Positions 733 through 12,742 of a DNA stretch of 39,746 nucleotides are shown here, one piece after another; the stretch's first letter is position 1, and each line of letters opens with the position of its first letter. The position numbers and the translations under genes were made by a program. The stretch is from Opitutales bacterium. GTDB taxonomy: Bacteria; Verrucomicrobiota; Verrucomicrobiia; Opitutales; Oceanipulchritudinaceae. A model generated the notes under the pieces. That model was not told where the DNA came from and searched no databases. It saw only the letters and a program-made list of their open reading frames with translations. The DNA is taken from NCBI GenBank assembly GCA_007134215.1, contig SLLG01000370.1, forward strand, positions 1 to 39,746, given 5' to 3'.

Positions 733-1577
733 CAGCTCCGCACCCGGTAATACAGGATTGCCAACCATTCGCGGAGGTACATGGAACTGGCGTGGAGGTG
801 GCGTTCGCCCGGGATGAGGTGGCGGAAGGCGGGACTGCGGACAACGGGCGAGTAGGTGGCGCGGAAGTGGACGTTGTCGAAGGCGCTGCGGAATTCGCGC
901 GCGGTGCGGCGCATGTGCCAGTCGGAGGTGACAACGCCGACGGGGACGTCGGCCGAGACGCCCTCGAATTCGCGGAAGTATTTCACGTGCCCGCGGGTGT
1001 TGCGGGAGCGGGATTCAAGGAGAATCTGTTCTTCCGGAACGCCGTAGGCGGTGGCGAAGCGCTTCATGAGGCGGCCCTGGTGGTCTTCGCCGAGTTCCGG
1101 GCGGCCGCTCGATCCCTGCATGACAAGGAAAGCGTGCGGGTGCTGTTCCCACCAGCGCACCGCTTCGGCAATGCGCGCGGCCGTGCCCTCGCGGAGGACG
1201 TCGGCCCGGTGGTCGCCGCTCGGCACGTAGCCCATGGCCGCGACAAGGATGAAGTCGGGTGAGAATTCGGCGGGAACGGGCCAGTGGGTCGTGAGCGAGC
1301 GGCGGAGGCTGTCGCTGCCGAGGGGCGTGGACAGGGTGTAGACGAAGAACCAGAGGGGGAGGAAGAGCGCGAGGAAAAGCTGAAAGGCGGAAATACTGAA
1401 ACGCTGAAAGGAGATTGCTGACCTTCGATCTCCGAGTTCCGCGTTCCGCGTTCCGGGTTCCGCGTTGGCTGGCCGGCGGAGAGATTGCCATGCGGTCCAG
1501 ACCCAGAGGAGGAGGCTGGCGGCGAGGAGCCAGGCGAGCGGTGAATAGAGAAGGTGGCGCACGGGTTCATTCCTCAC
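732..1577 (-). CDS. DUF218 (YdcF/SanA-like) membrane protein
   Basis: 281 residues. The C-terminal two thirds match the DUF218 family (YdcF, SanA and ElyC relatives, envelope proteins of unclear biochemical role): a strand-start VAAMGY motif, a long helix ending HPHAFLVMQGSSG, then LLESRSRNTRGHVKYF and VTSDWHMRRTA. Two hydrophobic segments (about residues 13-30 and 66-85) anchor it. The linker between them (about 38-66) is encoded by a simple-sequence tract (1375-1466) and is likely an insertion. The gene stands alone on the minus strand. The family assignment is firm; the function is not known. Confidence 0.8.
   Translation of the reverse strand: MRNEPVRHLLYSPLAWLLAASLLLWVWTAWQSLRRPANAEPGTRNAELGDRRSAISFQRFSISAFQLFLALFLPLWFFVYTLSTPLGSDSLRRSLTTHWPVPAEFSPDFILVAAMGYVPSGDHRADVLREGTAARIAEAVRWWEQHPHAFLVMQGSSGRPELGEDHQGRLMKRFATAYGVPEEQILLESRSRNTRGHVKYFREFEGVSADVPVGVVTSDWHMRRTAREFRSAFDNVHFRATYSPVVRSPAFRHLIPGERHLHASSMYLREWLAILYYRVRS
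1375..1466. repeat. Composite simple-sequence tract inside a gene
   Basis: GCTGAAA/GGAAATA units (1375-1412) are followed by GTTCCGC heptamers (1431-1466). Both types recur in inverted orientation outside the gene at 442-487 and 699-732. Here the tract keeps the DUF218 reading frame open and codes for a polar linker. Confidence 0.55.
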
Positions 1578-1636
1578 GCAGAATCGACTGTTCCCTATCA
1601 GTGTTCATCAATTTATCCGTGGTTGAGCGGAACACT

Positions 1637-1927
1637 TCAGCCTTCATCCAAAAAACGGGCCGTGTGGACATTCAGAATATCGAAACAGCCGAACACTTCA
1701 AAGTCACGCTGGTTTGTGGAGACGACTATCCGAGCCGTCCGCAGGGAATAAAGGGCGGCGGTCGCGGCGTCATTCACCCGCTTCCGTCCCAACCGATGCC
1801 CGCGCATCCAGTCGCGCTGGAGCCGGCACGACGCTTCATCCGGAAAGACGATGTCAGCGGTCGAAGGGACCGCAGCGATGTCGAGTTTGATTCCAAGATC
1901 GTCGATTTGCGGTATTGATCCATGGCT
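1637..1927 (-). pseudogene. PIN-domain toxin remnant (C-terminal part)
   Basis: In a frame overlapping the antitoxin gene, the minus strand encodes about 90 residues ending in a typical PIN-domain C-terminus: NDAATAALYSL, then RIVVSTNQRDFEVFG. PIN toxins are Mg-dependent ribonucleases of VapBC-type modules. The start codon and the N-terminal half with the first acidic (DxN-like) residue are missing; the frame opens after a stop at 1930-1928. A deletion that fused the antitoxin start to the toxin tail is the simplest reading. It is almost certainly inactive. Confidence 0.55.
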
Positions 1928-6958: not shown

Positions 6959-7152
6959 GAGGGGAAACGAGTCAGGAAGAAAGCAGGATGGTAGGGGAAT
7001 TCCTCGAAAATCAACCCGAAACTGCCCTGCGCACTGCGCACGGGATGGGTGCGGCTACGCTGCCGCCTTTGGTCGGGATCGCGCGGAATACGGCGAAAAA
7101 CCAAGCGGGGACATTGAAAGTGATTTGGGCCGCAGACAGGCGCGCCGCGCGT

Positions 7153-7722
7153 TCAGGCGTCGGTGCCGCTTTCGGAAGCTGCCTTCGCGCGGCGCAGGGG
7201 ACGTCCCAGAAATCCAAGGACAAAGGGCAGAAGCCGCTTCGCTTTGCCCTGCCATGTATTGAGGGCGCGCAGGCGGGCGGCGAGAACCTTGCGCTCCTCC
7301 GGCGGGTATTCGTCGAGGAGCGGGGCAAGGGACTCCAGTTGCTCCGCGCCGCGGCGCAGGTGCGGCGTCACCGTTTCCTGGAGCAGGCCGGTGAGGAGGC
7401 GGCGGATGGACATCTCCGGAACGTAACGGGTGCGCCGGTCGCCCGGCTCGTAGGTCGGCTGCACCGCCCCCACGCGCTGGAGGAGCTTCAGCCCCGAACT
7501 CGCCGAACCCTTCGAGATCGAAAGACGCTCCACGATGTCGTCGAGCGAGAGCGGCCGCGGCGAGGCGAACAGCACTCCGAAGATCGCCCCGACCGATTTC
7601 GGCAGCGAAAACGCCTGCGCCAAGTGGATGTAGAAATCAACCACCTCGCGCTCCCACGCGCTGCCCGCGCCCGCGGCAGCGGACTCCGGCAGCGGCACCT
7701 GACTTTCAGCGGCTCCGTTCAT
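7153..7722 (-). CDS. GbsR/MarR-type transcriptional regulator
   Basis: 189 residues. A winged helix-turn-helix occupies about residues 30-105: the start AWEREVVDFYIHLAQAF and PKSVGAIFGVLFASPRPLS, then the recognition helix SISKGSASSGLKLLQRVGAV and a wing EPGDRRTRYVPE. This arrangement is typical of GbsR-like regulators, which in other bacteria control osmoprotectant genes. The C-terminal helices probably form the dimer. It is 194 bp upstream of the small membrane protein/glycosyltransferase run in the same direction and could control it, but the ligand is unknown. Confidence 0.85.
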   Translation of the reverse strand: MNGAAESQVPLPESAAAGAGSAWEREVVDFYIHLAQAFSLPKSVGAIFGVLFASPRPLSLDDIVERLSISKGSASSGLKLLQRVGAVQPTYEPGDRRTRYVPEMSIRRLLTGLLQETVTPHLRRGAEQLESLAPLLDEYPPEERKVLAARLRALNTWQGKAKRLLPFVLGFLGRPLRRAKAASESGTDA

Positions 7723-7959
7723 GTTCCGGGAAGGATAAGAGAGTTCAGAATTTTCTGAACTTTCTCCCGCGTCAACGCAATTCGCGGAGGAAACGCCGCG
7801 TAGCGGCGGAGCGCACGCTTCCGCCGATCCCGGCTTTGCGTTTCCGTGTTGAAAGGACGCGCAATCCTCCGCCGCGTAATCCGTTTGTCAGTCGTCCGGC
7901 CCTCGTCGCCCCACACAAAAAAAAACCGCAAGTTGCTTAAAATACGGGCTTTATAAAAG

Positions 7960-10161: not shown

Positions 10162-11112
10162 ATGGTATTTCTCATCCTCATCTTCGGCGTGTTCTCGTGC
10201 GCCACGTCGGTCATTTTCATCCGGTGGAGTGAAACGGATCCGGTCATGCTGACCGCCTACCGCCTGATCCTCGGCGGTCTCTTCCTCCTGCCCTTCTACC
10301 TGCGCGCGAAAGAGCAACACCGCTTCCGCATGGACGCCGCGTTCGTCCGCAAGATCGTGCCCCCCGCCCTCTTTCTCGCGCTGCACTTTGTCAGCTGGAT
10401 CATGGGCGCGCGCATGACACCGGCCGCGAACGCCACGCTCATCGTCAACATGGTGCCGGTGGCGATGCCGTTCACGCTCTGGTTTCTCCTGCGCGAGCGG
10501 CTCACGCGCCCGGAGATTGCGGGAACGGTTTTCGCGCTCACCGGCGTCGTTCTCCTCGGCGTCGGCGATTTCCGCCTCAGCGCGGAGTATGCCCTCGGCG
10601 ACGCCGTCTGCTTTCTCTCGATGCTCGGCTACGCCCTCTACCTCACGGCGGCCCGCCGCAACCGCGATATCCCGTCCGTCTACCTCTACGTCGTGCCGGT
10701 CTACCTCCTCGCCTCGGTTTTCGCCCTCGGCGGGGCGGCTCTGGCCTTTCCCTTCGGCGGCGTCGGGAACGTCATCGGGCCGGACATCCACCGCGAGCTG
10801 TTCTGCATCCTCGCGCTCGGGGCGATACCGACTGTTCTCGGGCACAGCATCATCAACTGGTCCCTGCGCCACATGCGCGGGCAGACGGTCGCCATCGTCA
10901 ACCTGCATCAGTTCGTCTTCGCGGGCATCCTCGCGTTCTTTGTCTTCACCGAGGTGCCCGCGCCCTATTTCTGGGTCGCCTGCCTGCTCGTCATCTCGGG
11001 AGCCGTCGTTGTCATCCGCCAAAAGGCGCCGGTAGAAGCGGCGCCGTCCCCGTCACGCGAAAAGAAAACCGCCCCGCGGCCACAGAGGCCGGGGGGCGGT
11101 GAAAAAACTTGA
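10162..11112 (+). CDS. EamA-family (DMT) transporter
   Basis: 316 residues with about ten transmembrane helices in two EamA repeats: repeat 1 from MVFLILIFGVFSCATSVIFI, repeat 2 after GDAVCFLSMLGYALYLTAAR. It contains the typical SWIMGARMTPAANATLI and ALGAIPTVLGHSIINWSLRHM segments. I chose the ATG at 10162 because the frame before it runs through a palindromic repeat and is polar. DMT proteins export or import small metabolites; the substrate is not readable. The C-terminal tail is coded by the same DNA that forms a minus-strand terminator. Confidence 0.9.
   Translation: MVFLILIFGVFSCATSVIFIRWSETDPVMLTAYRLILGGLFLLPFYLRAKEQHRFRMDAAFVRKIVPPALFLALHFVSWIMGARMTPAANATLIVNMVPVAMPFTLWFLLRERLTRPEIAGTVFALTGVVLLGVGDFRLSAEYALGDAVCFLSMLGYALYLTAARRNRDIPSVYLYVVPVYLLASVFALGGAALAFPFGGVGNVIGPDIHRELFCILALGAIPTVLGHSIINWSLRHMRGQTVAIVNLHQFVFAGILAFFVFTEVPAPYFWVACLLVISGAVVVIRQKAPVEAAPSPSREKKTAPRPQRPGGGEKT
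11059..11100 (-). terminator. Rho-independent terminator of the Cys-rich gene
   Basis: On the minus strand a 14-bp stem (ACCGCCCCCCGGCC with GGCCGCGGGGCGGT, one mismatch) closes a 5-base loop and is followed by TTTTCTTTT. It lies 58 bp past the stop of the cysteine-rich gene and inside the last codons of the convergent EamA gene. Confidence 0.8.
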
Positions 11113-11157
11113 ATTGCAGGCGCTCCGGACGGAACCGGAACGCAACGGACGGCGGAA

Positions 11158-11895
11158 TCAGCTACCGGCTTGGGCGAGTTCAGCGGCGACTTCGCAGCAG
11201 GTGGTCGCCTTGGCTTTCACCTGCGTGCCCTCAGCCTTTTTCTTGCAGCAGTCGTCGCCCGCGCAGCACTCCTTGTCGCATTTGCACTCGCCGCACTCGT
11301 CTCCGCTGGAAACAGCGGCCAGAACGGCTTGCGCACCGGAGCCGGAGGCAGCTAATTCGTCTCCCGCGCAGCAGGAGGCGGCGACTTCACCGCGGGCCTC
11401 TCCGGCTTTCGCCGCAGTCGCGCCGCGGTCGACGCCCTTAATGGACGCCTGTTCAACCGTGGCCGAACAGGCCGTCGCGCAGTCTTCCGCCTTCGCGGAG
11501 GCCGCCTGCGCCTTGTCACCGCAAGAGGAACCACACGAGGCCGACTTGGCCGAAGCGAGCACCGCCGAGGCGGAACAGGCCGACGCTTCCGCCTTCTTGG
11601 CGGACGCTTTTTCGGCGACGGCATCACCCGCGCAGCAACCGCTCGCCTTGACGGAACGGGCTTTCTCAGCGGGGGCGGAAGCGAGAACCGCCGAGGCCGG
11701 GCAGGACTGGGCGGCGGCGTTGACATTTTGAGCCGAGGCTGAACAGGCGGAGACCGCGACGGTCTTTTCCGCGTTTGCCTTGGCCGGGAAAAGGGCGGCG
11801 GCATCGAGCGCGCAGCAGCCGCCGCCGGTTCCGGCGGTAGTGACAACAGCGTAGGCGAGCGCGGCGCCGCCGAAGAGAAGTGCGATTGATTTCAT
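11158..11895 (-). CDS. Secreted Ala/Cys-rich repetitive protein (22 Cys)
   Basis: 245 residues; I recognise no family. An N-terminal hydrophobic segment (about 4-21, LLFGGAALAYAVV) suggests export. The rest is low-complexity Ala/Ser/Lys/Glu with 22 cysteines: CC pairs at 27-28, 87-88, 175-176, 210-211, 216-217 and 233-234, and single Cys in SACSASA (51, 107). CCAGD occurs three times (87, 175, 210) and AVLASA twice. Residues 201-217 (CGECKCDKECCAGDDCC) are metallothionein-like. Metal binding or a disulfide-linked surface role is plausible but unproven. It has its own terminator and is divergent from the purine-salvage gene. Confidence 0.75.
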   Translation of the reverse strand: MKSIALLFGGAALAYAVVTTAGTGGGCCALDAAALFPAKANAEKTVAVSACSASAQNVNAAAQSCPASAVLASAPAEKARSVKASGCCAGDAVAEKASAKKAEASACSASAVLASAKSASCGSSCGDKAQAASAKAEDCATACSATVEQASIKGVDRGATAAKAGEARGEVAASCCAGDELAASGSGAQAVLAAVSSGDECGECKCDKECCAGDDCCKKKAEGTQVKAKATTCCEVAAELAQAGS

Positions 11896-12129
11896 ATGCG
11901 GTAGGTGGTGTTTGTGATGATTGACGTTAGTGAAAGGCAGGAAAAGTTGAGAACCAACTGCCCTGAAGGATCAGAAGGCCAGGCCGACGACTTATTCCAT
12001 GATGTGATCATCTTTATTAGATTCCGGCGTGTCAACCACGGATTCTCTTGCCAGCCCCGGCGATTCCCTCTGCAAAGAAGCCATTGTGGCCAAAGACGCC
12101 TTGAGCAAATCCAACCCCCGGAAAATCCA

Positions 12130-12181: not shown

Positions 12182-12742
12182 ATGCCCATGGCCGGGGATC
12201 TCGCGCGCGTCCTTGTCTCCGAAGACGAGATCCAGCGGCGTGTGCGCGCCCTCGGGGCGCAGATCAGCCGGGACTATGCCGGGGGCGGCAGCCTGACGAT
12301 TATCGCGGTGATCAACGGGGCTCTCCTATTTGTTTCCGACCTGCTGCGCGAAATCACGGTGCCGGTGCAGGTGGACTGCATGCGCGTCTCCAGCTACCGC
12401 AACGACACGACACCCGTGCAGGAGCCCGAGATCATCGACATGCTGCGCCTCGACCTGCGCGGCCGCCACGTGCTGATCATCGACGACATCCTCGACACCG
12501 GGCACACCTTCGAGCGCGTGACCGCGGAGATCCGCAAACTGGGTCCGGCCTCGCTGCGCTTCGGCGTCCTCCTCGAAAAGCTGGGCCGTCGCGAGGTCTC
12601 CGCCCGGCCCGACTATGTCGGCTTTTCCATACCGGACGAATTCGTCGTCGGCTACGGTCTTGATTTCGCGGAGGACTACCGCAACCTGCCGTGCATCGGC
12701 GTGCTCCGCGCCGATTGCCAGAACCCGCCCGAGTGGGCGTAA
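12182..12742 (+). CDS. hpt: Hypoxanthine phosphoribosyltransferase
   Basis: 186 residues from the ATG at 12182. The PRPP-binding loop [13 protein letters not shown] (about 97-109) is diagnostic of purine phosphoribosyltransferases; [18 protein letters not shown] and [26 protein letters not shown] match HPRT. It makes IMP (and GMP) from hypoxanthine (and guanine) and PRPP in the cytoplasm. A GTG at 12029 in frame would add 51 polar residues with no family support and would run through a hairpin, so the shorter start fits the family length of about 180. The start codon is the uncertain part. Confidence 0.92.

Follow-up and report, generated by a model that had tools for sequence, protein, structure and literature searches.

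The locus and its product

The window, meaning the whole 39,746-nucleotide stretch of Opitutales DNA analysed here, carries a gene for a protein of 245 aa with 22 cysteine residues, predicted to be exported. The features of the locus, in window coordinates, are as follows.

11060..11100 (-): intrinsic terminator, hairpin at 11068-11100 followed by a T-run, within the 3' end of a convergent EamA ORF
11158..11895 (-): CDS of the predicted exported Cys-pair repeat protein, ATG start, uninterrupted in three species and under purifying selection
11245..11295 (-): C-terminal Cys-dense cluster CGECKCDKECCAGDDCC, residues 201-217, with 7 Cys in 17 residues, including CxC and two CC
11368..11535 (-): zone with 18-residue Cys spacing (C121, C139, [157], C175), each unit opening with CxxxC or CC
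11422..11427 (-): Arg157-Gly158, site of a lost CC pair, CC in both sister species and an aligned CC in G006
11833..11895 (-): signal-peptide-like N-terminus, residues 1-21, MKSIALLFGGAALAYAVVTTA
12007..12035 (-): promoter-like site TTGACA-17-GATGAT, a consensus match only, kept in three species of the genus
12182..12742 (+): hpt-like phosphoribosyltransferase, divergent neighbour, start placed from homologue coverage

The N-terminus, MKSIALLFGGAALAYAVVTTA, has no lipobox and reaches a hydropathy maximum of 2.27 at residue 4. It is followed by low-complexity sequence rich in Ala, Ser, Lys and Glu, with few aromatic residues, and Cys makes up about 10% of the mature protein. Six CC pairs are found at residues 27-28, 87-88, 175-176, 210-211, 216-217 and 233-234, and three CCAGD motifs begin at residues 87, 175 and 210; the DNA pattern encoding CCAG[D/E] occurs 3 times in the window, as compared with 0.04 expected from shuffles. 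On recount, the number of cysteines, CC pairs and CCAGD motifs and the CGECKCDKECCAGDDCC cluster all agreed with the first-pass annotation of this ORF, and the signal-like start that it described is supported by the hydropathy maximum and by the canonical signal peptide of a homologue in genome G008. Judging from this N-terminus, the protein is probably exported from the cytoplasm, with a cleavage site presumably following the signal-like segment.

Conservation within the genus

The comparison set consisted of the window genome (G000) and two genomes of the same genus (G001 and G002, both MAGs). Syntenic orthologues are present in both sister species with 82% and 72% identity to the window protein, and all 22 of its cysteines are invariant across the three species. 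The dN/dS of the gene is 0.15-0.23 (dN 0.10-0.18), its start and stop codons are conserved, and in a six-frame comparison only the sense frame was free of stops and it had the lowest dN/dS. The single difference in CC content at residues 157-158, where Arg-Gly replaces a pair in the window species, suggests that individual CC pairs are dispensable.

The surroundings are conserved as well. The terminator hairpin (-29.6 kcal/mol, z of -5.7 against shuffles) is present in both relatives, where bases have changed with the pairing largely kept, in agreement with the earlier proposal that the gene has its own strong terminator. The gene order, comprising a 2-hydroxyacid dehydrogenase, the EamA transporter, the hpt-like phosphoribosyltransferase and an acetyltransferase, is also kept in both. 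The promoter-like site upstream of the Cys-pair gene could instead drive hpt on the opposite strand. Elsewhere in the window, an ORF at 6988-7758 (+), coding for 256 aa, likewise has conserved counterparts in both relatives (58% identity within the aligned region) and no Pfam match.

The Ala-rich low-complexity sequence and a long antisense frame (11099-11731, plus strand) might suggest that the ORF yields a functionless product and owes its existence to a GC-rich repeat or to the antisense strand. This explanation is already contradicted by conservation and can scarcely be credited: selection acts on the sense frame, which has zero stops in the three species while each antisense frame has them; the start, stop, terminator and promoter are conserved, the cysteines are invariant, and homologues occur in other genera. 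The ORF at 11099-11731 is itself interrupted by stops in the relatives and has a higher dN/dS than the sense frame, which removes the antisense alternative. The first-pass annotation had regarded loss of the cysteines or a broken frame in relatives as evidence against a functional protein; comparison of the orthologues found instead retention of 22 of 22 cysteines and no stops. On the evidence of these sequence comparisons, the ORF at 11158-11895 is a real gene under purifying selection.

Homologues in other genera and the 18-residue period

In another genus of the same family (G006), synteny, not sequence search, revealed a homologue of 264 residues. It contains 28 Cys and 11 CC pairs, and most of the pairs recur at intervals of exactly 18 residues in units such as CCxxxAVLASxPAVKAD. 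The gene is divergent from hpt, an arrangement common to the window, G001, G002 and G006. Alignment scores of the G006 and window proteins lie 8-10 standard deviations over those of shuffled sequences, for the mature part alone as for the whole, and by this measure the two proteins are related. A profile of the window, G001, G002 and G006 sequences matched a 148-residue protein in a third genus (G008) with an E-value of 4.6e-4, in which a canonical signal peptide is followed by CC pairs at 18-residue spacing. Its shuffle z is 4.7-5.2 against the window and G006 proteins as compared with only 1.8-2.2 against those of the sister species, and it is therefore a probable, not a certain, homologue.

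Cysteine pairs at a lag of 18 residues number 12 in G006 against 2.7 expected, a value reached in 0 of 4000 randomisations. The same period was found in G002 (p 0.003) and G008 (p 0.0055) and is borderline in G001 (p 0.04); in the window copy it is not significant (p 0.09), being weak after the loss of one CC. The period in G006, G008 and G002 indicates that the cysteine spacing is a conserved feature. The idea that 18 residues, or five helical turns, place the cysteines on one helical face was rejected, since the Cys resultant is only 0.11-0.33. The family can thus be described by a signal peptide, Cys pairs about 18 residues apart and a Cys-dense C-terminal tail; G006 and G008 show all of these, as does the genus of the window, where the period is weaker.

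The gene is carried by 5 of the 17 genomes of the family to which the window belongs, a count that could miss distant members. With the same proviso, no convincing member was found outside this family among some 350-370 genomes of the order; searches of the order with the genus profile or the G006 protein returned, beyond the known members, only weak and mostly frame-broken matches. A scan of genome contigs matched the two sister MAGs only, and viral contigs and plasmids gave no match. In 387 genomes of the phylum, the pattern of three CC at 18-residue intervals corresponded mostly to Gln/Leu repeats in other frames, and runs in the Cys frame were recognised, among the matches listed, only in G006 and G608. 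As far as these searches reach, the CC-repeat family appears so far confined to one Opitutales family.

Family assignment and predicted structure

Profile searches of the window protein against Pfam, NCBIfam and PDB revealed no relative, in accordance with the earlier statement that it belongs to no recognised family. Pfam gave no family for the whole protein at E<=1, nor for the C-terminal cluster and three homologues at E<=10; metallothionein profiles were not matched in either search, and neither Csp/DUF326 nor OmcA/OmcB profiles were matched in the Pfam searches. The protein therefore falls outside the metallothionein, Csp and OmcA/OmcB families as these profiles define them. AlphaFold2 models of two homologues, built on alignments of only 3 and 5 sequences, have mean pLDDT values of 34 and 37 and contain nothing folded beyond the signal helix and no helical bundle, and Foldseek found no structural match to the first of them. 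The mature protein may accordingly be largely disordered, as far as such models indicate. No paper describing an Opitutales CC-repeat family was found in the literature searched, and by the profile searches these proteins belong to no known family.

Exported cysteine and disulfide enzymes in the host family

In bacteria without DsbB or VKOR, exported proteins are usually poor in cysteine. Profiles of DsbB (PF02600) and VKOR (PF07884) matched nothing in 17 of 17 genomes of the family (G000-G016), whereas control genomes were matched. The 49 predicted exported proteins of the window genome, drawn from a sample of about 0.85 Mb, contain 0.28% Cys when pooled, and 25 of them have none, as compared with 1.09% in its proteins without membrane spans; the corresponding values for G006 are 0.12% and 0.91%. 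The exported-Cys figures are estimates, as export was predicted by a simple purpose-written rule. Avoidance of exported Cys, sampled in G000 and G006, may characterise the family (G000-G016) as a whole. Published work connects the exclusion of Cys from exported proteins with a lack of oxidative folding, mainly in obligate anaerobes (PMC12453122). With about 10% Cys, the window protein has some 35 times the exported average, and against such a Cys-avoiding exported proteome it must use its thiols somehow.

Likeness to known systems

Bacterial metallothioneins (SmtA/BmtA, MymT) share with the window protein a high and clustered Cys content, little aromatic content and no predicted rigid fold, but the known ones are small, such as the 4.9-kDa MymT (PMC7558416), while the window protein has 245 aa, units of about 18 residues and a predicted export signal. 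Csp1-type proteins resemble it in being exported, Cys-rich and Ala-rich and in having CxxxC motifs; Csp1 differs in its Tat signal and rigid four-helix bundle (PMC7558416), neither of which is seen here. Chlamydial OmcA and OmcB are likewise exported Cys-rich proteins of the PVC superphylum, but no sequence match links them to the window protein, and Chlamydia possesses DsbA/DsbB (PMC6752827), while DsbB and VKOR are undetected in the family of the window.

Other Verrucomicrobiota have small exported proteins rich in Cys and Lys (L141 in G608, L142, L144, L145, and L143 with a rhodanese domain), in which CC-rich repeats likewise come after a signal peptide or lipobox; the G608 protein has a lipobox and 18-residue units CGANCxKPCCAKKAxxKK. 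Unlike the window family, to which no homology can be demonstrated, they are Lys-rich, not Ala/Ser-rich, and much shorter, and they seem to realise the same principle independently. In G608, locus L137 (158-475, plus strand) encodes a predicted lipoprotein of small size that carries the 18-residue repeat CGANCxKPCCAKKA three times and which L142, L144, L145 and L164 of other families of the phylum resemble. L143 (G551, 1102-1794, minus strand) is an exported protein in which CC-rich repeats (CPSDCTKPCCAKKAAVKSACPDGCTKPCCAKKAA) are fused to the rhodanese domain, hinting at a link to sulfur transfer. In the window genome itself, L250 (contig C255, 17093-17365, plus strand), near a sigma-70-like ORF, encodes a short exported His/Met/Cys protein (HHMGGAETHCAMTAHG...CPGCGGG) that may bind metal.

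Possible functions

For the function of the protein, the first-pass annotation had put forward a metal scavenger, a redox buffer and a disulfide-linked surface polymer, with no preference among them. The window protein is best read, plausibly but tentatively, as an exported, largely unfolded thiol sponge for soft metals or metalloids; in favour of this are the conserved cysteines, the CC and CxC clusters, the absence of a predicted fold and the undetected disulfide enzymes. The Sec pathway would carry the protein out of the cytoplasm as a largely unfolded Ala/Ser/Lys/Glu chain bearing Cys pairs about 18 residues apart and the dense C-terminal cluster. With DsbB and VKOR undetected, many of its thiols would stay reduced or oxidise only slowly, and clustered or vicinal thiols could take up Cu(I), Zn/Cd or As(III) outside the cytoplasm in the manner of a metallothionein. 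The trait typical of that class, a Cys-rich chain with clustered CxC and CC, is present (7 Cys in 17 residues, 22 in 245 overall), and in metallothioneins folding comes after metal binding (PMC7558416). The absence of a fold in the AlphaFold2 models is what would be expected of a chain that folds on metal, the shallow alignments making it weak evidence for disorder. The thiols are presumably reduced and may hold soft metals or other thiol-seeking chemicals, the metals named being candidates. Against the sponge stand the absence of metal genes among the neighbours, the conserved ones being hpt, the EamA transporter and the 2-hydroxyacid dehydrogenase, and of any metallothionein or Csp profile match; moreover, other thiol oxidases, DsbA-like proteins or uncatalysed oxidation at high pH could still convert the thiols.

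The main rival is a disulfide-linked surface polymer; even without an enzyme, oxygen and a high pH could be enough to oxidise the thiols. Evenly spaced CC repeats suit cross-linking, as do the predicted export, the scarcity of aromatic residues and the lack of a predicted fold, and disulfide cross-linking is known for chlamydial OmcA and OmcB (PMC6752827). This polymer is nonetheless rather unlikely, as the Pfam searches matched no family, those of the chlamydial Cys-rich outer-membrane proteins included, the window protein has no lipobox, and neither DsbB nor VKOR was detected in the 17 family genomes, in contrast to the DsbA/DsbB pair of Chlamydia (PMC6752827). Together with the avoidance of exported Cys, the failure to detect DsbB and VKOR makes a catalysed disulfide polymer less likely than a function that uses thiols or metals. 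The high thiol load would also suit a thiol redox buffer or sulfane-sulfur carrier outside the cytoplasm, quenching oxidants, polysulfide or other electrophiles. In another family of the phylum, the exported protein L143, with no demonstrable homology to the window protein, joins CC-rich repeats to a rhodanese domain; it is an analogue, redox or sulfur genes do not adjoin the Cys-pair gene, and a buffer or carrier role is unlikely. An exported Csp-like copper store, with Cu(I) held in a helical bundle lined by Cys, is the least probable of these functions and very improbable in itself. Export, the Ala-rich composition and two CxxxC motifs 18 residues apart (C121/C125 and C139/C143) would fit, but the signal is not of the Tat type, Pfam searches of the window protein (E<=1) and of the relatives (E<=10) gave no hit, the models contain no confident helical bundle, and the cysteines do not cluster on a helical wheel, while Csps fold ahead of copper binding (PMC7558416).

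Developing the thiol sponge further, it is conceivable, if doubtful, that these proteins form a new family of extracytoplasmic metallothionein-like proteins built of 18-residue repeats that all begin with two vicinal Cys. In hosts apparently devoid of the usual disulfide-forming enzymes, whose exported proteins otherwise avoid Cys, one protein would then concentrate most of the extracytoplasmic thiol capacity and capture arsenite or soft metals. In a lineage in which DsbB and VKOR are undetected, a conserved exported protein with 22-28 Cys is exceptional and calls for a function that depends on thiols. The family thus raises the question of whether a reduced, metal-holding thiol pool exists outside the cytoplasm of Verrucomicrobiota, and whether such a pool was built independently in several lineages of the phylum from short Cys-pair repeats.
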